A stretch of DNA of 64,000 bases, taken from positions 1-64,000 of the IMG/VR virus record IMGVR_UViG_3300043446_002680, one strand, 5' to 3'. Positions 37,032 to 49,151 of this stretch are shown piece after piece. The translations under genes and the position numbers were made by a program. Each line of letters starts with the position of its first letter. Positions within the stretch are counted from its first letter, which is position 1. Under the pieces are notes generated by a model. That model made no database searches. It saw only the letters and a list, made by a program, of their open reading frames with translations, and was not told the origin of the DNA. This DNA is from a virus.

Positions 37032-37039
37032 TATTTATA
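37032..37039 (-). promoter_or_regulatory. T4-like late promoter octamer (TATAAATA)
   Basis: A perfect TATAAATA on the minus strand, 18 bases before the TTG start at 37013 and overlapping the end of the helicase gene. It would drive the internal-protein and nucleotidyltransferase genes late. Confidence 0.55.
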
Positions 37040-38438
37040 AATTACTTGGAGAACTTTTCAGACCAGCCAACATTTGCTTGAGTTTATTGGTTTCTACACC
37101 CACTGCTCGCGGCGCTGCTCGCACTGGTTCTTCTGTGACCTGTGATGTGGTCTTAATACGATCCATAACAGAATTAGCCACACTGCGATAGCCACCTTCA
37201 GTGTTTTCTGTGGTGCCAGAATCACTAATACGCATGGTTTCTATGTTGTAGTCTAGATCAATTTTCTGACCTACACCTGTGCTACTGCGTGACTTCATAC
37301 ACTGTATCTGATATTTTCCACGTTCACGCATGGCTCTGCTGGTAAAAATACCAAACACATTATCTGCTGTGTTAATCTTACTGATACCACCTGAAATATG
37401 GCTATGGTCGAATTCGACTTCTTCTACTGCTGATCTATTCAGCTGCGAAGCTGTGACCATGAGTACACCAAGTTCCTTGGCCAAGTTACGCAGTTCTTCG
37501 CTGACATACTTGTCTTTGACAAACAAGTCGTTGGGCGAGACCTTGGCTGACACCGGCATCAGCAGGTCCAAATAGTCTACCATGACAAAATCCACTCTAT
37601 GACCAGTCTGAATTTGATATTCCTTGAGAAAACTGCGTATGTCATTGATAGTGCTTTGTGCTGGCATGTACTTGATGCGATATGCGCCAGATTTTTTACC
37701 CACAATTTTGACCTTGAGCCCGGTATTGTCAATGTCTTTTCTGATGTCTCTGGTGCTTTGATCTGTGAGCATGGCATCTGTGCGTAGCCCAGTGAGTTCT
37801 TCACTGAGTTCCAAGGTAAGATACACACCACTGAGTCCCTGCTGTAACCAACTTAGAGCTATGTTCATCATAACCAAGCTCTTGCCTGATCCAGACCCAC
37901 CGGCAAAGATATTGAGTTCGCCACGACTGAATCCACCATAGAGTATCTTGTCCAACTGTGGCCAACCTGTGCTGACTTGTCCACCAGAGTTAAAATAACG
38001 ATTGATACGATCTCCGGGATTGGCCCAGTAGTCAGTGCCCATGTCTCTGGTCAAGCTGATTTGCACAGCTTCTTTGATCAGCTTTTCCACGGGATTGTAC
38101 TCACCTTTTTCCAACAAGTCAGCACTTTTGAGAATAGCACGCTCTAGTTCTTGACGCCGAGTAAAACTTTCGAACTCGGTCATGAACCAGTCTAGGTGAC
38201 CTTGGTCTAGCTCGGGCACAATCTTGATGTCTACACCAGCCACAGCCTGTACCTGTTCTACTTTGGGCAGTACACCATGTCGATGTGTGTGCTCGGCAAT
38301 AAACTTGGCAGCTTCGCGCAGACTACGATCGAAGTTTTCTGGATTGTAGATGTTTTGCACACGAATAAAACTCTGTGCATCAGTTAACATGATCTCTAAA
38401 AACAATCTCTGCAGATCCACTGAGTAATTTTTTTCCAT
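37035..38438 (-). CDS. 41: Replicative DNA helicase (T4 gp41-like, DnaB family)
   Basis: A 467-residue hexameric 5'-3' helicase. The RecA core has Walker A GGSGSGKS (180-187), the DnaB motif GVYLTLELSEE, Walker B FVMVDYLDLLMP, and the SQLNR motif. The N-terminal helical domain (residues 1-130) is the primase-interacting part. It sits one base downstream of the primase gene, the usual T4-like pairing. The C-terminal KSSPSNL tail may contact partner proteins. Confidence 0.94.
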   Translation of the reverse strand: MEKNYSVDLQRLFLEIMLTDAQSFIRVQNIYNPENFDRSLREAAKFIAEHTHRHGVLPKVEQVQAVAGVDIKIVPELDQGHLDWFMTEFESFTRRQELERAILKSADLLEKGEYNPVEKLIKEAVQISLTRDMGTDYWANPGDRINRYFNSGGQVSTGWPQLDKILYGGFSRGELNIFAGGSGSGKSLVMMNIALSWLQQGLSGVYLTLELSEELTGLRTDAMLTDQSTRDIRKDIDNTGLKVKIVGKKSGAYRIKYMPAQSTINDIRSFLKEYQIQTGHRVDFVMVDYLDLLMPVSAKVSPNDLFVKDKYVSEELRNLAKELGVLMVTASQLNRSAVEEVEFDHSHISGGISKINTADNVFGIFTSRAMRERGKYQIQCMKSRSSTGVGQKIDLDYNIETMRISDSGTTENTEGGYRSVANSVMDRIKTTSQVTEEPVRAAPRAVGVETNKLKQMLAGLKSSPSNL

Positions 38439-38439
38439 A

Positions 38440-39417
38440 CTAGTTATATAGTCTCTTGCGTTTGAGTATGATCTTTAATTTGCTGGTTTGTGTTTCGGCC
38501 AAGATTGATTTTAACACAAACACAGCACCATAGCGTACCACAGCTTCGTTGACATCCTTGCAGGTTTCTTGCCATACAGGAAAGCTCACTGACCACCCAT
38601 AATCCAAGGCTGCGCCGATTAATTGCTGCCCGGCACGATCTCGATCTGGTACCACTATGATTTCTTTGTTCAGCTGTTCTATGAGTTCGGCCTGTGCTTC
38701 TGAGCAGTTGTTACTGAGTATGGCCACACCATTGATACTCATGGCATCAAATGGTCCTTCGGTGACTATGACAAATTTAGCTGCGGGAAGTTGCTGATCT
38801 AAATTGTACACATAACCGGCGTCGTAGTTGCTGTGATATTTTGGACGCACAGCAGGATCCCAAGCTCGTGCTGAGTAGCCGATTAGTTGATCCTGCCAGG
38901 TAAAAGGTATAATGATTCTACGGTTGAGATTATACTCAGCTTGACTGCTGGTCATTAGACCATAGCGTTGCCAATCAATCTTGCGTTGTTGAACATAGGC
39001 CAAGGCTGCAGGATCATGATCCAAAGGCGCAAGATTTGCAGGCATGTTGCGTGGCGTAATTACGGTAGCAGCGGGTTCTGGTTCTAGTTCGGGTATACCT
39101 TGTAGTTCTCGAACACGAACTGCTTCGATGACTAGTCTACTTATGGTGTTTTCGTCGGCGCCCAACCAAGATAAAAATCTACGAAATTTATAGCCTAGGG
39201 CCCATCCCGGTCTGTGTGATACCTTGAACTGGCAGTTAAAACAGTGATACGACACTGTACCGTCTGTGTTGGCAATCAAGCCACCACGTGATCTACTGTC
39301 GGGATTGTGCCCGCGATGCACACAGCACACAGCATTGAAACTGATCCAACCACTGCCAGAGTTACGGCGTCGAGCTGGTAGTAGTTGTAATACAGCATCT
39401 TGAACAGCAGTCGTCAT
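38440..39417 (-). CDS. 61: DNA primase (T4 gp61-like)
   Basis: A 325-residue primase. The N-terminal zinc domain is visible as CCVHRGHNPDSRSRGG and YHCFNCQFK; the TOPRIM part has VIVTEGPFDAMS and IIVVPDRDRAG, supplying the catalytic Glu and the Asp pair. It makes the RNA primers for lagging-strand synthesis together with gp41 helicase, whose gene follows immediately. A weak sigma70-type promoter leaves about 7 bases before the ATG at 39417. Confidence 0.92.
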   Translation of the reverse strand: MTTAVQDAVLQLLPARRRNSGSGWISFNAVCCVHRGHNPDSRSRGGLIANTDGTVSYHCFNCQFKVSHRPGWALGYKFRRFLSWLGADENTISRLVIEAVRVRELQGIPELEPEPAATVITPRNMPANLAPLDHDPAALAYVQQRKIDWQRYGLMTSSQAEYNLNRRIIIPFTWQDQLIGYSARAWDPAVRPKYHSNYDAGYVYNLDQQLPAAKFVIVTEGPFDAMSINGVAILSNNCSEAQAELIEQLNKEIIVVPDRDRAGQQLIGAALDYGWSVSFPVWQETCKDVNEAVVRYGAVFVLKSILAETQTSKLKIILKRKRLYN

Positions 39418-39460: not shown

Positions 39461-40306
39461 CTATACCATTCTTTCCATAATTATGGTGTTCTTTTTATAC
39501 CCACCGCCAATGCTGAGTGTGATTCTGTAAAATCTACGATTGGTAACGTCTTGCACATTGTAAATGGCTACGTCACCTTGCCAGGGAAAACTCCATGAAA
39601 ACGGTTGTTGCCATGTAGTGTTTAAGGAATTACCATTCCAATATCTTGCCTCCCAGTTTCCGGTGTAGTCACCTTTGGCCCAGTAGATCTGTCCTGTGAT
39701 GTTTACCGTTAGTGTACCTGTGGTTACTCTAAACTGTAGACTACGACTACCACTAGGGGCTAATTGTACAGCTAGTGTGTCTAATGATAGTTCTACGCCG
39801 TCATCAATGTTAGCAGCCTTGTAACCCGGAGGCGCTGAGACTATGATAGGAGCAAATGGATTAGGAGCACCTCCTACCATACGCACACCAGCAGAAGCAG
39901 TACTAGTATTAGCAGCAGTAGCGGAAACTGGTCCAGCGTTAATGGTTGATCCGTCTGATCGCGTAATAATTAAATTACCATTGGTTACCACCGCCGAGGT
40001 TATGCTGACACCAGCTGGTCCTGTTGCACCCGGTTCGCCGCTATCACCCTTGGGACCTTGTGGGCCGGTAGCTCCAGCCATACCTGTTGCTCCTGTACTA
40101 CCCGCTGGTCCAGGTTGCCCTGCTATACCAGTAGCTCCCATTTCACCAGAGAGCCCCTGTATACCTTGCGGTCCTGTAACTATAGTGGGTTCAGGTGGAG
40201 GAGGAACTGTACCACGCCATTTGACTCCGTCAAATGTGTATTGTGTACCTTTATGTGTGGTAAACACGTCGCCATTTTCGGCATTGAGTGGTAGATTATC
40301 AAGCAT
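39461..40306 (-). CDS. Collagen-like tail fibre or adhesin (281 aa)
   Basis: A 281-residue protein. The N-terminal 40 residues include YTFDGVKWRGTVPPPPEP, a carbohydrate-type binding module motif found at fibre heads. About 75 residues of Gly-X-Y follow (GPQGIQGLSGEMGATGIAG) and then a beta-rich C-terminal half (AVVTNGNLIITRSDGSTIN, then TGTLTVNITGQIYWAKGDY). It belongs to the block of fibre genes 39461-45103. Confidence 0.8.
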   Translation of the reverse strand: MLDNLPLNAENGDVFTTHKGTQYTFDGVKWRGTVPPPPEPTIVTGPQGIQGLSGEMGATGIAGQPGPAGSTGATGMAGATGPQGPKGDSGEPGATGPAGVSITSAVVTNGNLIITRSDGSTINAGPVSATAANTSTASAGVRMVGGAPNPFAPIIVSAPPGYKAANIDDGVELSLDTLAVQLAPSGSRSLQFRVTTGTLTVNITGQIYWAKGDYTGNWEARYWNGNSLNTTWQQPFSWSFPWQGDVAIYNVQDVTNRRFYRITLSIGGGYKKNTIIMERMV

Positions 40307-40317
40307 AATTTATCCTA

Positions 40318-41634
40318 TTATGGTACAAGTAAAAGTCGTGTAAGTCCAGCTGTGATAGCGGAGGTATTAGAACCACCGTAGGGATTCGCACTAGCAGTAG
40401 TAGTCAAAGCAGATGTTGGTACTGTGAAACTACCGCTATACACTGCCCAGCCCTTGATCCAGCGAAAGTTAGTAATATAACCCACAAAAGCAGCATTAGT
40501 AGCAGGTGTGTTGGTGTTGCCTATATATAAATCACGCACAAGGTTGTTATAATCTGTAGTATCGGTGATATTGCTGCCAAATTGTACACCATTACGATAA
40601 ATTCTTGTAACACTACTGCTGCGTACTATAGCCCAATGGACCCAGGCATTACCGTTGTTAGCTGCACCAACATTGGTAGCCGAACCGTTACGCCAATAAT
40701 AAAATGTGCCACTTTCTATACTAACACCAATAGTGATAGGACTGAGACCACCACTGTAGTCGCCTACTGTGAATACACGCTGGAATTGTGTAGTATCTGT
40801 TTGATACCCAAACCACTCTATGGTAAAATTACCTGTGCCTAAGGCCCAGTCATCGCTGGCAGGTCGCGCCAAGTAACTGTTGACATTTGATGAGAAACTG
40901 TAGCTGTTGCCACCACCTGCGAATGGTGACTGGGCTACCACTGATACAGCAGATCCGGTGATTTCATACAATCTAAACTTCATGCTCATCACATGGCTGT
41001 AACCTTGCCAGGTTCTAATAACTCGTCCGTAACCACCTAACTGTAGCGGACTACGTGATTCACTTTGACTGGCATATTCGTAGATGGTAGGAAATGCTGT
41101 TATGACATCGGATCCACTGATTTGTGCTGTTCTTGGTGCAGCCAGTGTTCTAGCTGCTCTAAAAGGAATAATACTATGACCTACAATAAACCAAGTATTA
41201 GCCGGCACAGTCATACTAGCACCGGCCGGGTGCTGAACAAATGCACCCGAACTAGATGTTAAATTACTGGTACTGTCACTGGACAGCCCGCTATGACTGG
41301 TGCCTACCCGTTGTACATAAGGGGCTATGCCAACAGCATAATACCAACGCTTAGGGCTAGCAACTTGAGTAGAGTAAGTACCTACTGCTAGTCTATTAAC
41401 ACTGTCATTTGATATGATTACAGCTTGGTGTGCAAAACACAGTTGAAAACAGCGATTCTGAATTGATCCTAAAATATCTGTTGTAGTAGAAGTATTACTT
41501 GTCCAAAAGTCAAAGTAAGTATTATCTGTCCAGGCAATGTTGGTGGTGCCGGAAATGTCAGGCACTGTTTCTGTATATGGTGTTGTTACGCCACGACGAC
41601 CATAACTGAATGATTTACTAAATCCACCAAACAC
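40318..41634 (-). CDS. Adhesin with LamG/ConA-like lectin domain (438 aa)
   Basis: A 438-residue protein. The N-terminal 250 residues are beta-rich without a clear family. The C-terminal 190 residues form a Laminin_G_3-type jelly roll: GTGNFTIEWFGYQTD, RVFTVGDY, WVHWAIVRSSSVTRIYRNGV, then DLYIGNTN and FVGYITNFRWIKGWAVYSG. This lectin fold binds glycans or proteins. It is likely a receptor-binding component of the tail, encoded directly beside the collagen-like fibres. Confidence 0.85.
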   Translation of the reverse strand: MFGGFSKSFSYGRRGVTTPYTETVPDISGTTNIAWTDNTYFDFWTSNTSTTTDILGSIQNRCFQLCFAHQAVIISNDSVNRLAVGTYSTQVASPKRWYYAVGIAPYVQRVGTSHSGLSSDSTSNLTSSSGAFVQHPAGASMTVPANTWFIVGHSIIPFRAARTLAAPRTAQISGSDVITAFPTIYEYASQSESRSPLQLGGYGRVIRTWQGYSHVMSMKFRLYEITGSAVSVVAQSPFAGGGNSYSFSSNVNSYLARPASDDWALGTGNFTIEWFGYQTDTTQFQRVFTVGDYSGGLSPITIGVSIESGTFYYWRNGSATNVGAANNGNAWVHWAIVRSSSVTRIYRNGVQFGSNITDTTDYNNLVRDLYIGNTNTPATNAAFVGYITNFRWIKGWAVYSGSFTVPTSALTTTASANPYGGSNTSAITAGLTRLLLVP

Positions 41635-41636
41635 GA

Positions 41637-44591
41637 TTATAGACCACCAAATGATGTCATCATACCCAGTACTGTATAAGTGCCCCCGACATTAAGTATA
41701 CTAAATGTCACTGCATCTGTTCTATTAGCATTACCAGCTGGCGCACTTGCTGATCCTTGCCAAGTAATAGTTTGAGCCACTCCCCCGATCTGTACTGCTG
41801 TGACCATTCTAGCAGTGCCACTTTGAACTAGTACAAGACTAATACTAGTAGATCTACCTGCTGATAGATTTAAGTTAGTAAAGTTGGCAGTGAAGTTAGC
41901 AGACATTGAGGTATGATAAAACAGTCTGTTAGTGGTACAGTCATGTGTAACAACACCAGTGGCTGCTGTGAGATTACCAAATGCTTCATCTAGTGCAGCA
42001 CTGCCTCCGCCACCAGCTGGGTTGGAGTCAATCCAGGCTGAACCTGTGTAGATATAAGTTCTACCATCATCTGTGTCGTAATAGAGTTGACCAGTGACTG
42101 GACTTGATGGGGGTGTTGATTGTACCTGAGCAGCGGATTTCGTCCAAGCTGTGCTTTGTATGGTACTATCAGGAAAAACTATATTACCACCAGTGGTAAA
42201 ATTCCAAACCTTGTTTCCTCCGCCATAGCTTAGAGCAGAAATCTTAACATTACCACTATTCATCATGATGTTGAATGCATTATTGAAGTCAGTGGCACTG
42301 GTGTCAGTGCCTTGTATATAAATGTATCCAGTATTGCCGTTCAGGTGCGGGAAGCCCAAAGTCACTGCTTTATCGATTTCAGCCAAGGGCATTTCCATAG
42401 TAGAACGCAGGTAAGTGCCCGCAGCAGAATCTACAGTGAATAAAAACCGTTTATCTATATCAATGTCGGGTCTAAGTTGAATGGCATCACTAATACCACC
42501 GAGATAGGATCCATAGATGTTTGTCCCAACTTGAATATTGCCTGACCGTAACAAATTAGTATCTGTGCGATAGGTCAAGTCAACATCGGCTCGCATGTAC
42601 TGCCCACTGGTTCTACTTTCCACAAAGGTCGGGTAGTAGGTAGTACTAAGACCATTGGTGTTGGTTACGTCAACTGTGCCGGCAGCTCCGCCACCACCAC
42701 CACCGCCCGTGTAGGCAGTACTTTGTATGGTTCCATCAGGGAATGTTATGTTGCCAGTGTTAGCAAATTGCCAACCCTGCTCACCGAAACTAATATTAAA
42801 TGTTTCACCGGGTTCGAATTGAATCAAGCGGGCACCACTGAATATGGCCCAATCATTTATAGTACTACCAAAATTAATCTGGAAACCGTGATTGCCTAGT
42901 TCTAAACCACTGGTGTTGCTACCAATGCTGCCAATATCTCTAATGCGTGTGCCATTGGGCAACTCAATGTTGCCATCGGGGAGAAATCCCCATTCAGCAG
43001 GATCAACCGCCCAGTTGGACACAATGGTTACGCCACCAACATTACTCTTGATTGTTACATCAGGGCCGTTTGCCAAATCTATTTCATTATTGCCAGTGGC
43101 TTGTATGGTATAACCGCCGATGGTTAATTGATTATCGGGTGTGCGTAAGCTGCCGTCAGTACCAAATGTCCAAAATTTACTAGTGTAGAAGTTATTTCCA
43201 GTTCTTATCAATAAGGGATTAGCAACATTGCTCCAGAAGTTTATTGCGCTACCGTCATAGAAAACCTGTAACTTTCCATTTAAGGCGCGAAGTTGCCCGG
43301 GTAAGTTTAGACCGCCGGTTGGAGTCATTTCAACAGTTGATAGACCAGCTTCGCCATCTTCAAGGTTGATACGGAGGCCTTGCTCAAAACCAATGTTGAT
43401 TTCGGCATTACCACTGGCACCGGCTGGTAATGTTACGTTACCAGTTCTATCAAATCGCCAAAGTTTTGCACCGCCGGCAATGGATCCATCACCGTTAGCA
43501 AGTAGGTAAGCATCTTTCATTGACGTCAAAGCAAGATTACCCGATAGAGTTGCTACCTCTGCTTCTGATATAATTATTTGCCCTGCAGGACCAGCCGGGA
43601 ATGTAACCGAAGGCTGAGATCCCATACCATTGATGATTAACTGGGCAGTATTACTTTTGATTCTATCAGGATAGGCCGAAGTCAAGCTGGTTCCATCGGC
43701 AAAACTCACGTTGGCAAATGTCACCGAGCTTGTGGTCTTCACTGCCTGATTTAGGTAGTCTGCAAATTGATTACCATCCCAAAGGTCAGCATCTAGACCT
43801 GTGCCTGTGCCGTCGTTGCCCGCATGCCATACAGTGTTGTTATTCATCAACAACCCTGTGTTAGTGGGTGCCACGAAGTTAAACTTGTCGTCGGCATCAT
43901 TGGTCATGGTAAATGTCATGCGAGTGGCTTCACCACCGGCTGTGGTCAAGGTAATTGTGGCTGTGTCGCCCGATCCACCAAAGGCATCTGTGGGGAATCT
44001 TATACCGCTGGTACTTACGTAGACTGTGCCTGTACTGGTTATGTTATTAAATGTTACATTGTTATTGGTATTAAGGCTTTGGTTGTAAGCACTGACACCA
44101 GCCGGACCAGTGGCACCTGTACTACCCTGTGTGCCTTGTGGGCCTGTGTTACCCTGTATGCCTTGTATACCCTGGATGCCCTGTGGGCCAACAGGTCCAA
44201 CGTTACCAGTGGCACCAGTTAGGCCTATAACTCCTTGTATGCCTTGAATGCCCTGTGGGCCAACAGGTCCAACGTTACCAGTGGCACCAGTTAGGCCTAT
44301 AACTCCTTGTATGCCTTGAATGCCCTGTGGGCCAACAGGTCCAACGTTACCAGTGGCACCAGTTAGGCCGATAACTCCTTGTGGACCGGTTGCACCTGTG
44401 GCACCCACTGCCACAGCAATATTGCCATTGAGTCCTAGTATGTGTCCACCTTGGGTAACACCATCATGCACACGTATGGTCTTGAGTGTGGTGTCCATGG
44501 TAATTTCACCAATTGGACCTACATATGCGCTGCTGACTGTGGTGTTACCGCGTTTGAGCAGTATTTGTTTGAGTATGACGTTGCCTGACAT
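41637..44591 (-). CDS. Long tail fibre protein with collagen-like repeats (984 aa)
   Basis: A 984-residue protein, the largest fibre in the window. The N-terminal head ([19 protein letters not shown] and [20 protein letters not shown]) is of the type that anchors fibres. About 110 residues of Gly-X-Y follow, in part as a repeated 24-residue unit encoded by a 72-bp tandem repeat. Then comes a long beta-structured shaft with repeated motifs such as [14 protein letters not shown] and [14 protein letters not shown], and a final domain with [20 protein letters not shown]. Variation in repeat number could change fibre length. Confidence 0.88.
44149..44380. repeat. 72-bp tandem repeat in the fibre gene
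   Basis: About three near-identical 72-bp units encode 24-residue Gly-X-Y blocks ([20 protein letters not shown] and four further residues). Near-perfect identity at the DNA level points to recent expansion. Confidence 0.85.
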
Positions 44592-45125: not shown

Positions 45126-45497
45126 GTGGAAGAAATTAAACTGCTGCTCAGCCAATACCCATTTATTACCTATCTTGTCTATGGAGGCAACGAATACATA
45201 GGAATCATACAGAATTCCGATGAACAGATCACCACGATCTATGATTTCGGCAGTTTAAAAAGCGCAGATCAAAAGCGTAGATTCTTGGATCTAGGCGAAC
45301 AGTGGTGGTGGGAAAGCAATCGCATGATTCCCATTAATGTGTTTCTTAAAACAGACTGGGCCGAATTTCGTTACTGTGTAAAAACCATGAACAGCAAAGA
45401 TGTCAAGGTCAAGATGGGTCCACAACTTAACCTAAAAGAAATGGCAGCTAAGAGATCAAAGCGTCGTAGTATTACCTTGGTTCGCAAGGTCCAGTAA
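45126..45497 (+). CDS. Conserved-looking phage protein, opposite strand (123 aa)
   Basis: The only plus-strand gene after 12921. The reading frame opens upstream, but the part before GTG 45126 is hydrophobic and would overlap the divergent gene, so VEEIKLLLSQYPFITYLVYG is taken as the start. The 123-residue product contains TIYDFGSLKSADQKRRFLDL and WWWESNRMIPINVFLK, and ends in a basic KRSKRRSITLVRK. The look is that of a small conserved T4-like-phage protein of unknown function, perhaps nucleic-acid binding. Its end overlaps the DnaE-like gene tail to tail by 42 bases. Confidence 0.7.
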   Translation: MEEIKLLLSQYPFITYLVYGGNEYIGIIQNSDEQITTIYDFGSLKSADQKRRFLDLGEQWWWESNRMIPINVFLKTDWAEFRYCVKTMNSKDVKVKMGPQLNLKEMAAKRSKRRSITLVRKVQ

Positions 45498-46055
45498 GTT
45501 CATGTGCACTGCTACTAGATGTGCATAGGCCACAGAATGGCTCTTTTTAAAGTAATATTGATCATTGTCGGGACGTTGCCATACTGATTTGGCCACCGAA
45601 GACCAAGGCTGACCTATTAGGTGCCGCTTGCCGGGTCTGATCACAGCTAGAAACATGGCTAATCGTGCTATGGTATTCACAGCTTCTGGCATGGCTACTA
45701 AATTATCATAGTGATTGCCGATGTGTATTAACTGCGTACAGAATTCTGGTTCGTAGAGTTTATGCCATGGTGGCTCACGCTGCAATAATTGATCAAGATG
45801 TTTGGGTCCATTAACCTGTGTATAAACATGTACGTTTAAAAAATCTAGCTTGATATATCCTCTATCTTCGGCTATTCGATAATCCAATGAACTAGATTTT
45901 GTAACAGGGTCCACTGGAATATCTGTTACATACACACCAGTATTATGTCTGATACGTTTTGAATCTGATATTATACTAGCAGGTACATGCCTGATAATGT
46001 TTAGAATCTGATTACGATCGGCAAAATCTAGATCTATATCACTGGTAAATTTCAT
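45456..46055 (-). CDS. Miniature DnaE-like (C-family polymerase) protein (199 aa)
   Basis: Only 199 residues, yet five motifs of the bacterial DNA polymerase III alpha subunit appear in the same order: SDIDLDFADRNQIL (DnaE DFDVDF, holding two catalytic Asp), RHNTGVYVT (DnaE HAGGVVIA), GYIKLDFLNV (DnaE LVKFDFLGL, third catalytic Asp71), AVIRPGKRHLIG (DnaE ALFRPGP) and YYFKKSHSVAYAHL (DnaE FNKSHSAAYAL). The full enzyme has over 1,000 residues, so most fingers, PHP and DNA-binding domains are absent. It could be a relic or a small non-processive nucleotidyltransferase. Not identified as the phage's main polymerase. Confidence 0.7.
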   Translation of the reverse strand: MKFTSDIDLDFADRNQILNIIRHVPASIISDSKRIRHNTGVYVTDIPVDPVTKSSSLDYRIAEDRGYIKLDFLNVHVYTQVNGPKHLDQLLQREPPWHKLYEPEFCTQLIHIGNHYDNLVAMPEAVNTIARLAMFLAVIRPGKRHLIGQPWSSVAKSVWQRPDNDQYYFKKSHSVAYAHLVAVHMNLLDLANQGNTTTL

Positions 46056-46732
46056 AGTCCAGCCACTGCTAATATACGTCGAGCAAATTCAACATCGTCG
46101 GCACGATCTCTAAATACACTTTGCCAATAGTCAGGATCAATAAATTTCATTATCATAGTGATTTGGTCTGTGTTTAGTCTTTCTAAAAAGGCCCGACCCG
46201 ACTCAGCATGATACACAATCCAAACACTGATTCTGCCAGTGGTGATATGATAACAAACACGATTTTCATTGACTAATCTAAAATAATCACGATAGCCATT
46301 GAGATATTCTGGATGTTCTACCATGTAGTCTGCGATGCTTTGTATACTGCGTTCTAGAGCATCTTTTACAGATTCTCTACGTAGATAATCAAATAACCAT
46401 TCAGCATATAGTTTTTCTTGGCACCAATGATCTAATTTGCGATTGTTTTTTAACAACCAACGCAAAAAATTCTCGAAGTTTACACAATGTACGCTGTGAC
46501 AGTGTCTGCCAAAGCGCACAAAAGCAGTATAGTAGTTACTGATAACAAAATCTTCATAGGTCAGCGATTTGCTACGCTGTGTGGTATTATAAAAAATTTG
46601 ATATGCTCTAAAACCCCACTGTACTCCAAGTTCGTGTTGCTGTTGAAATCGGCGTTTTCGTTCACACGCATGATGCGCTAGTGTGGTTTCTTTGACAAAT
46701 TTTTTATCACAGTACTTACATTGATAACTCAT
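46052..46732 (-). CDS. C2H2 zinc-finger phage protein (226 aa)
   Basis: A 226-residue protein with a classical N-terminal zinc finger (YQCKYCDKKFVKETTLAHHA: C-x2-C and the start of the His pair, followed by CERKRRF). The rest is helical and aromatic (NFENFLRWLLKNNRKLDHWC, HPEYLNGYRDYFRLVNENRV) with no enzymatic motif. It is coupled to the DnaE-like gene by a 4-base overlap, which suggests joint action on DNA. Family not recognised. Confidence 0.75.
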   Translation of the reverse strand: MSYQCKYCDKKFVKETTLAHHACERKRRFQQQHELGVQWGFRAYQIFYNTTQRSKSLTYEDFVISNYYTAFVRFGRHCHSVHCVNFENFLRWLLKNNRKLDHWCQEKLYAEWLFDYLRRESVKDALERSIQSIADYMVEHPEYLNGYRDYFRLVNENRVCYHITTGRISVWIVYHAESGRAFLERLNTDQITMIMKFIDPDYWQSVFRDRADDVEFARRILAVAGL

Positions 46733-47177
46733 CTTTTATTCTTCGGTCATCCCATCCTGACTCAACTGCATACTTTCTTATGTCTGTGTCAGACAACTGT
46801 TTAGACAATAATTCTAGTTCGTCTTGTTTAAGATGCGGAAATTGACTGTGTAAAAAGTTCAATACAGGGCTAGTCCGAGTAGTTTTGGCCTTCAGCCAGT
46901 AGTGTCTTTGTGCGCCCATTTTTGGACTTACAGTGGTACACACCAACCATTGTAATTTTGGATGTCGGGCTAGATCAAAAAAGTTTAGGTTCACACGCTC
47001 ATTGTGTGCTCTTATGTACCATTCCTGTAAATCAGGGATGCCCTGTACGCTAGCACCCCATTTCAACATCATGTAAGTACTAAATTTTTTTCGTTCTTCG
47101 TCGGTAAGACTGTCATAAAATCCACGATCTTTGGTATCAAAGGCACGCATTTCCACAGCGATATCTAATTTACTCAT
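46716..47177 (-). CDS. Clamp-loader small-subunit-like protein (T4 gp62-like)
   Basis: A 153-residue protein from ATG 47175-47177 (overlap TAATG with the upstream stop). FYDSLTDEERKKFSTYMMLK followed by NFFDLARHPKLQWLVCTTVS and RHYWLKAK recalls the short gp62-type clamp-loader subunit of T4-like phages outside the enterobacterial group. gp62 joins gp44 to load the sliding clamp. The gp44 and gp45 genes are not in this window, so the assignment is tentative. Confidence 0.5.
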   Translation of the reverse strand: MSKLDIAVEMRAFDTKDRGFYDSLTDEERKKFSTYMMLKWGASVQGIPDLQEWYIRAHNERVNLNFFDLARHPKLQWLVCTTVSPKMGAQRHYWLKAKTTRTSPVLNFLHSQFPHLKQDELELLSKQLSDTDIRKYAVESGWDDRRIKDELSM

Positions 47178-47686
47178 TACCAAGCCTTGCCAAAATCCAC
47201 TACTTCGCTGACACGACTAATATCTTTAACAAAGTAAATGCACAAGGGATTGTCTAGATCACTTTCTATGGGCACAGCCAACATCTGACCTGGCTTGAGT
47301 TTGGGAAAGTACCACTTGACATCTTGATAGATATCTACAATCTCCACTGGTTGAAATTCGGGTCTATAACTGCGTATGGGATTAAAACAAAATGCCGAAA
47401 ATCCACGATCGTTTATACTAGTTAATGGTATGACTTCTAGGTCGCCAAGATCAGGCTCGCCGATCAGCAACTGCCAATCCACTGGCATTTTCACTGTGTG
47501 CTCACCTATGCGTAGTACCAGTGCAGGTGAGTTAAAACTTTCTAAAAAGATCAGGGGTATAAAATGATAGTCGGGATTCTTGGGATCTGAGTTATCCAGT
47601 ACACAGAATCTCAGATCTTCGACCTCGTCGGGAATTTCGTTAAGGTCATAGGCTCGGTTGGTATCTAGGTTTAGTATTCTGCTCAT
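47177..47686 (-). CDS. Phage protein downstream of uvsW, unknown function (169 aa)
   Basis: Start ATG 47684-47686 (MSRILNLDTNRAYDLNEIPD), chosen because a promoter puts transcription start on this A; the frame is open further upstream only inside uvsW. A 169-residue beta-rich protein (PALVLRIGEHTVKMPVDWQL, FPKLKPGQMLAVPIESD) probably conserved in T4-like phages. No enzymatic motif is visible. Confidence 0.7.
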   Translation of the reverse strand: MSRILNLDTNRAYDLNEIPDEVEDLRFCVLDNSDPKNPDYHFIPLIFLESFNSPALVLRIGEHTVKMPVDWQLLIGEPDLGDLEVIPLTSINDRGFSAFCFNPIRSYRPEFQPVEIVDIYQDVKWYFPKLKPGQMLAVPIESDLDNPLCIYFVKDISRVSEVVDFGKAW

Positions 47687-47692
47687 GTTGTT

Positions 47693-47722
47693 ATTATATG
47701 TAATTGACACGTTCAATGTCAA
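47693..47722 (-). promoter_or_regulatory. Sigma70-type promoter with start on the ATG
   Basis: TTGACA (47717-47722), 18 bases, TATAAT (47693-47698), then AACAAC and the ATG at 47686. It lies within the 3' end of uvsW. Confidence 0.75.
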
Positions 47723-49151
47723 ATGGATAGTTTGCCTCTCGATAAAAATTCTTGCGCTGTGTTAGATGCCGCTTGGCAAACTTGCAGGAACTTGTTATGT
47801 CCCAGATTTGTACGAAGTCTTTGTCCTGCGCCTTTCTAATGCCGCGCCCAATGCTTTGTATGACACGTACAAAACTCTTACCAGGCTCAATAAGCACAAG
47901 ATTAAAAATCCTAGGCAGATTGATGCCAACTGCTGCCACACCGTAGGTTGCGACAATGACTTTATCTGCTGCCGTTGCCACTTCGTCATATTCTTCCTGC
48001 CTATCGCTACCTTTGGTAGCTCCGCTAACAAACACTGCATCGCGTATTCTTGACACCAAGGCCTGTCCAGCAGCCACTCGGTCAATCAAGATCAAGGTAT
48101 TGCCCGACTCACGTACACGCTCAACCAAGCTGCTGACATAGTCTAAGCGTTGAGCATTTTCCAACAAGTATTTAAGTTCACTTTGATAGTTAGTAAACTC
48201 TTTGTGATCCTGTAACTGTATGACGTTGACATGGCACTGTGCCAACACGCCCTGTTCTTGCAGCTCAGCAGCACTGAGTTGGCCCACCACTGGTCCTAGG
48301 CTACAGGTCAAGGCCAAGCGTTCATAGTCAGCCTTGGGTACAGTGCCGGTCAAGCCCCAGCGTATGGGCACATGACTCATTACACCAGTCAACAATGTCT
48401 TTAGTGCATCGGCCTTGGCCATGTGCACTTCATCAACTATGACACAGACCACGTCTTCAATGAAGTCGCCCATGGTGACATCTGTGATACCCGACCGAGT
48501 ATTTTTCAACAAGACATTGAGACTTTGCCAGGTGCATATGGTATGCTGATGTCCAGGTTCTTTACGGTCACCGTAGTATACACCAACGTCCAGGCCTAGG
48601 ATACGATAGTCAGATTCAGTCTGTGTGACCAAACTCTTGTTGGGCACTATGACAATGCTGCGCCCATGGTCTTGCACACTTCGGCTCAGTGCCGCGGTCA
48701 TCACAGTTTTGCCAGCACCAGTGGCAACTTCTTGAATGCACTGTGGTGTAGTTAAAAACCTATTGATGATATCGCACTGATAATCGCGCAGCAAGATGGG
48801 CTGGCCTTGCGCTGTGTGTCCTTCAGGCCAAACATGGTCACTGAAACTGTTTTCATTGACTGCACTGAATTTATAGCTGGTTGTGTAATTTCTAGTATCT
48901 GCAATGTCAATGTCATAGCCTAGATCTTCTAGGATAGGAATAATGTCTGGTAACAGATTAATATAAGTAGCACCAGCCAAACTAAAATAACTGACCTTGC
49001 CGTCCCAACGTCCTAGGCGTACTGCTGGCAAATAACGTGCACCTGGGATCTCATACTTAAAACGATTGGTCAATGTACGACGTGTGTTAACATCAAGTCC
49101 TTCGATCTTGACATTGACTTCGTCATTGATGATAAGTCTACACTGTGTCAT
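47694..49151 (-). CDS. uvsW: UvsW-type SF2 helicase
   Basis: A 485-residue recombination and replication-fork helicase. Walker A ATGAGKT (143-149), DEVH (240-243), WGLTGTV (motif III), ILIDRV, and the C-terminal RecA2 motifs VATYGVAAVGINLP (V) and IQSIGRGIRKA (VI). The first 100 residues form the UvsW N-terminal domain (YEIPGARYLPAVRLGRWDGK). In T4, UvsW branches D-loops and helps switch from origin- to recombination-dependent replication. It overlaps the upstream partner gene by 14 bases. Confidence 0.95.
   Translation of the reverse strand: MTQCRLIINDEVNVKIEGLDVNTRRTLTNRFKYEIPGARYLPAVRLGRWDGKVSYFSLAGATYINLLPDIIPILEDLGYDIDIADTRNYTTSYKFSAVNENSFSDHVWPEGHTAQGQPILLRDYQCDIINRFLTTPQCIQEVATGAGKTVMTAALSRSVQDHGRSIVIVPNKSLVTQTESDYRILGLDVGVYYGDRKEPGHQHTICTWQSLNVLLKNTRSGITDVTMGDFIEDVVCVIVDEVHMAKADALKTLLTGVMSHVPIRWGLTGTVPKADYERLALTCSLGPVVGQLSAAELQEQGVLAQCHVNVIQLQDHKEFTNYQSELKYLLENAQRLDYVSSLVERVRESGNTLILIDRVAAGQALVSRIRDAVFVSGATKGSDRQEEYDEVATAADKVIVATYGVAAVGINLPRIFNLVLIEPGKSFVRVIQSIGRGIRKAQDKDFVQIWDITSSCKFAKRHLTQRKNFYREANYPFDIERVNYI

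Follow-up and report, generated by a model that had tools for sequence, protein, structure and literature searches.

A virus-encoded homolog of bacterial DNA polymerase III alpha, probably one half of a two-gene minimal polymerase

A minimal DNA polymerase III (Pol III) alpha whose two parts are encoded by genes far from each other has been reported in group 2.2 jumbo phages (Iyer et al. 2021, PMC7824862). In these phages the split enzyme stands beside a family-B enzyme, and one-strand synthesis or repair was proposed as its task (PMC7824862). As the split minimal Pol III alpha was published in 2021, the finding described here is not new in kind. No experimental follow-up of it was found in the literature searched (subscription journals lay outside the search). 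To the published prediction we add a conserved breakpoint, conservation statistics, a confident predicted fold, and co-occurrence figures, as well as the presence of the enzyme in a 141 kb phage and a conserved replication neighborhood.

We analyzed a 64,000-nucleotide stretch (hereafter the window) of the IMG/VR virus record IMGVR_UViG_3300043446_002680, which is 71,949 bases long and classed as linear. Its T4-like replication genes encode a UvsW helicase, a gp61-like primase, a gp41-like helicase, a ligase, and a ribonucleotide reductase; 25 tRNA genes are also present. The gene of interest, on the minus strand from an ATG at 46055 to a stop at 45456, encodes a 199-aa protein. With a probability of about 0.85, sequence comparison and structure modeling identify it as one subunit, the C-terminal one, of a minimal C-family DNA polymerase encoded by two genes. 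The features needed in what follows are:

37035..38438, minus strand: DnaB/gp41-like replicative helicase
38440..39417, minus strand: DnaG/gp61-like primase, in the same replication cluster
45129..45497, plus strand: small convergent gene (phrog_11637) that extends into the 3' end of the polymerase half
45456..46055, minus strand: putative split Pol III alpha C-terminal subunit (metal-binding palm and fingers core), with predicted active-site residues D6, D8, D10, K69, and D71
46052..46732, minus strand: CX2CX12HXC zinc-finger protein (phrog_11058), whose stop overlaps the polymerase-half start by 4 nt
46716..47183, minus strand: phrog_11758, conserved upstream neighbor
47177..47722, minus strand: phrog_11279, conserved upstream neighbor
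47694..49151, minus strand: UvsW-like helicase

Homology to bacterial Pol III alpha

The 199-aa protein is homologous to bacterial Pol III alpha (C family), as supported by sequence-profile, profile-profile, and fold comparison. A preliminary description of the window had listed five DnaE sequence blocks in order and retention of the catalytic aspartates. Both observations held: the ORF coordinates are exact, and all five blocks are present and collinear. Alignment to a DnaE profile with hhalign returned three collinear blocks, pairing ORF residues 6-16 with E. coli DnaE 401-411 (DxDxD), 36-142 with 510-641 (HxGG, K553/D555, and FRP blocks), and 148-180 with 735-767 (FNKSHSAAYA). The first of these is very short and is weak taken alone. 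Via these alignments, D6, D8, and D10 correspond to E. coli 401, 403, and 405, K69 to 553, and D71 to 555. The fingers motifs occur in C-family order, IRP and then FKKSH (FRP and FNKSH in E. coli), and the ORF starts five residues ahead of DxDxD.

We identified relatives of the protein in many phages. It matches phrog_11778 ("DNA polymerase") over its full length (4e-56), and tblastn recovered 90 phage records, mainly jumbo phages of the RaK2, 121Q, PA5oct, Atu_ph07, and SCTP-2 kinds. The 199-aa sequence alone has no Pfam match; six of 15 family members match DNA_pol3_finger, the best at 3e-5. A single-sequence search of the PDB gave chance matches only and no polymerase. When a 103-sequence family profile was run against 177,635 PDB sequences, all nine matches at E<10 were DNA Pol III alpha (best, 0.004).

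A comparison of the predicted fold with DnaE had been proposed beforehand, and an unrelated fold was not obtained. The single-sequence AlphaFold2 model was useless (pLDDT 33.8), a problem remedied by the 103-sequence alignment, with which the C half alone was modeled at a mean pLDDT of 95.5 and a pTM of 0.87. All of the best nine PDB matches found by Foldseek are DNA polymerases, and eight can be identified as Pol III alpha from M. tuberculosis, Thermus, or E. coli. Probabilities are 0.90-0.99 for ranks 1-7, 0.60 for rank 8, and 0.38 for rank 9, with a fall to 0.02 for the tenth match. The E-values (from 6e-3) and query TM scores (0.37-0.43) are modest, as would be expected of one piece of a 1,100-residue fold. 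Most of the top-ranking BFVD fold matches are phage DnaE-type polymerases.

D6, D8, D10, H37, G40, K69, and D71 are 100% conserved in 199 non-redundant homologs, which were clustered at 90% identity and range down to 29% identity to the 199-aa protein. R140, P141, and H173 are likewise invariant, a figure that is biased because part of the sequences were gathered with patterns over those motifs. The gene is also under purifying selection. Relative to its nearest relative (L001; 7% divergence), dN is 0.044 and dS is 0.304, giving a dN/dS of ~0.15.

Much of a full-length DnaE is absent from the protein, including the thumb, PHP, clamp-binding, OB, and C-terminal domains, and no exonuclease was found in this polymerase half. 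DxDxD and K-x-D are 60-66 residues apart in the family versus 152 in E. coli DnaE, and RP and FNKSH are 28-48 residues apart versus 118. The first deficit coincides with what we take to be the E. coli thumb (residues 433-510). Given the missing thumb-length sequence, processive replication is unlikely. The C half of PA5oct (L084) has a tail ending in EPDPFKLFS, which resembles a possible clamp-binding motif and is not common to the family.

The separately encoded N half

In the C-family palm, a phosphate-binding GS motif (GPGRGS, 359-364 in E. coli) precedes the DxDxD strand (401), and the GS helix of Pol-beta-like enzymes binds the incoming triphosphate. This motif (G-x-GRGS) is absent from the 199-aa polypeptide, which alone is therefore not a complete C-family core. 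When six isolate genomes that carry the C half were searched with PF07733, each yielded one separate ORF of ~175 residues with G-x-GRGS. Two further isolates also have the N half, which brings the count to eight of eight isolate genomes; one of the two is an Alishewanella phage of 141 kb that is not a jumbo phage. The initial estimate that about 80% of DnaE is missing thus needs qualification: other DnaE parts are indeed gone, but relatives encode one further piece of the palm in a second gene elsewhere in the genome.

The N half aligns to E. coli DnaE 322-392 (hhalign) and ends in EFLK/R in nearly all members, the counterpart of FERFLN (388-393) in E. coli. Conservation of its GRGS motif is biased by motif-pattern collection, as above. 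The C half starts one to six residues ahead of the first Asp in most members. As judged from the aligned sequences, the break between the halves falls in one palm loop, between the GS helix and the DxDxD strand, and is conserved. A break in the DnaE of Krampus was considered as the same break and rejected, as it lies between PHP and palm rather than in the palm loop.

The two halves tend to occur together. Among long related contigs with the C half, 20 of 24 also have the N half; the four long records without a detected N half may be incomplete. Conversely, the C half was found in 8 of 14 contigs with the N half, and seven of those are among the eight longest. In one 359 kb record, which may be incomplete, the N half is present but no C half was detected. 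Usually the halves are widely separated in the genome; at a dozen loci they lie within ~15 kb of each other, mostly <6 kb, in more than one arrangement. A scan of IMG/VR with a single N-half protein returned nothing, whereas an N-half alignment did yield matches. No N half was found on the 71,949-base record. The nearest large relative (G001; 250 kb, C half 66% identical) encodes both halves ~218 kb apart. A partner in the source phage, which would lie beyond the available 72 kb, is inferred from such relatives.

No natural fusion of the halves was detected among 315 C-half and 113 N-profile ORFs. Long N-type matches were considered as fusions and set aside, as they proved to be ordinary DnaE, the split DnaE of Cbastvirus, a second DnaE-like protein in one contig, or an N half preceded by a long upstream open frame (L110). 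The contig in question (3300017759_002084; L236:8745-10094) is from a phage with a C half, and its second DnaE-like protein is a single chain (PF07733, 8e-41; finger domain, 1e-16) that has LCRAH in place of the FNKSH motif.

Genomic neighborhood and proposed role

The surroundings of the C half are conserved across 314 loci (the denominators that follow are loci with enough flank). In 287 of 300 loci the zinc-finger gene is found upstream on the C-half strand, and the convergent phrog_11637 gene lies downstream on the opposite strand in 285 of 294. Upstream, uvsW was found in 158 of 204 loci; downstream, the primase was found in 137 of 176 and the helicase in 18 of 21. This order beside uvsW, primase, and helicase is a reason for placing the enzyme at the replication fork. 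The preliminary description had coupled the polymerase half to a C2H2 zinc-finger gene. The gene does adjoin it with overlap, but the signature is better given as CX2CX12HXC (278 of 291 homologs), and its score does not reach the Pfam C2H2 cut-off. Between the polymerase half and the primase and helicase genes are collagen-like (GPQG/GATG repeat) tail-fibre-type genes (39461-44591), at a site that holds a virion structural gene in relatives. Alishewanella phage Slicko01 (L098), the 141 kb phage mentioned above, keeps both halves and a similar neighborhood.

A family-B polymerase is encoded in all 16 large records tested, so the split Pol III alpha is probably accessory; no family-B replicase was identified on the 72 kb fragment. 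The protein is most likely part of an active accessory polymerase. The C half would supply the DxDxD strand, the strand in which K-x-D holds the third catalytic Asp, and two fingers motifs (RP and FKKSH), and the ~175-residue N half would supply the GRGSS phosphate-binding helix. We infer that the halves rebuild one Pol-beta-like palm by non-covalent assembly and that the product is catalytic. The assembled enzyme would have no thumb-length insert, no PHP, and no recognizable clamp-binding or OB domains. It may carry out short, poorly processive synthesis near the primase (primer extension or gap filling) and then pass the DNA on to the family-B polymerase of the phage. Our leading guess is primer extension followed by transfer to PolB, suggested by the gene neighborhood and by analogy with B. 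subtilis, where DnaE is described as briefly extending RNA primers before handing off to PolC (PMC5627055).

If active, the enzyme would define the minimum of the bacterial replicase needed for templated synthesis and would bring together, in one phage replisome, a polymerase of bacterial type (C) and one of archaeo-eukaryotic type (B). A more specific and rather doubtful proposal is that it is a thumb-less C-family heterodimer of ~43 kDa, perhaps the smallest of the family, acting at the fork as the primer-extending partner of the family-B replicase, with the zinc-finger neighbor as a third subunit. If true, a single phage replisome would use C-family and B-family polymerases together. Given an active enzyme, dedication of the same split polymerase to repair or lesion bypass, which is compatible with the two-gene reading, has a reasonable chance that falls short of even. 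Such a role fits the lack of a thumb-length insert and of an exonuclease in the protein, and is one option suggested by Iyer et al. (PMC7824862). However, gene order ties the enzyme to primase and helicase, and no damage-response partner was noticed, although none was systematically sought.

The initial interpretation offered a stripped-down C-family nucleotidyltransferase or an inactive decoy. The former survives in part: the palm and fingers fold derived from DnaE, the aspartates, and the C-family nature all stand. Self-sufficiency is not supported, since the dNTP-binding GS helix is on a separate product and the conserved break separates that helix from the DxDxD strand. A small nucleotidyltransferase working without the N half, for example a template-independent tailing enzyme, would be consistent with a C half that has its own gene, is predicted to fold well alone, and has all three aspartates. 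We consider it highly improbable given that the triphosphate-binding helix is kept on a co-occurring gene and that the protein retains the fingers motifs of C-family enzymes that depend on a template.

The decoy idea, in which a DnaE relic that is structural or has lost catalysis would bind the host clamp, clamp loader, or template and disturb replication of the host, is only marginally more probable and remains very unlikely. Several DnaE domains are indeed missing, and relatives own a full family-B replicase. Against it, the catalytic Asp and Lys residues are invariant, the C half is under purifying selection, and the retained partner half has its own conserved GRGS motif. In addition, the clamp-binding residues of E. 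coli DnaE lie in parts absent from the C half. Least probable of all is joining of the halves into one chain by protein trans-splicing via a split intein. A split PolB with an intein is known in related phages (PMC6892783), and in two Cbastvirus phages DnaE is interrupted within the same loop, with extra sequence there. However, N halves that stop at EFLK/R and C halves that start at the palm strand leave no room for intein segments; none was seen at the breakpoint, and a split intein there was rejected.

Comparison with known polymerases

The protein shares with bacterial DnaE (E. coli, T. aquaticus, and M. tuberculosis) the catalytic strands of the palm, the order of the fingers motifs, and the predicted fold. 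It differs in that the phage palm is split over two genes and the PHP, clamp-binding, OB, and C-terminal domains are lacking. Compared with E. coli DnaE, there are ~90 fewer residues between D401 and K553 (the thumb region) and ~90 fewer in the fingers.

The DnaE genes of two Cbastvirus phages, Larrie and phiST, are also broken in this loop of the palm (PF07733 positions 98/100). There, in contrast, the two genes are adjacent, the PHP, fingers, and HhH domains are kept, and there is extra sequence at the break. Tenacibaculum phage Larrie (L095:4146-7726) and Cellulophaga phage phiST (L188) thus encode a full-size DnaE in two genes, the first with ~50 extra residues after the break that are possibly the remnant of an inserted element.

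The closest counterparts are phrog_11778, which shows no notable difference over its full-length match, and the split Pol III alpha of Iyer et al. (PMC7824862). The latter consists of an N-terminal NTP-binding protein and a C-terminal Mg- and template-binding protein, encoded by genes far apart and accompanied by a family-B polymerase, the arrangement that is also predicted for the source phage. Nothing fundamental sets the present locus apart from that system, and the source record, with a presumed N half beyond the available sequence, represents one more member.
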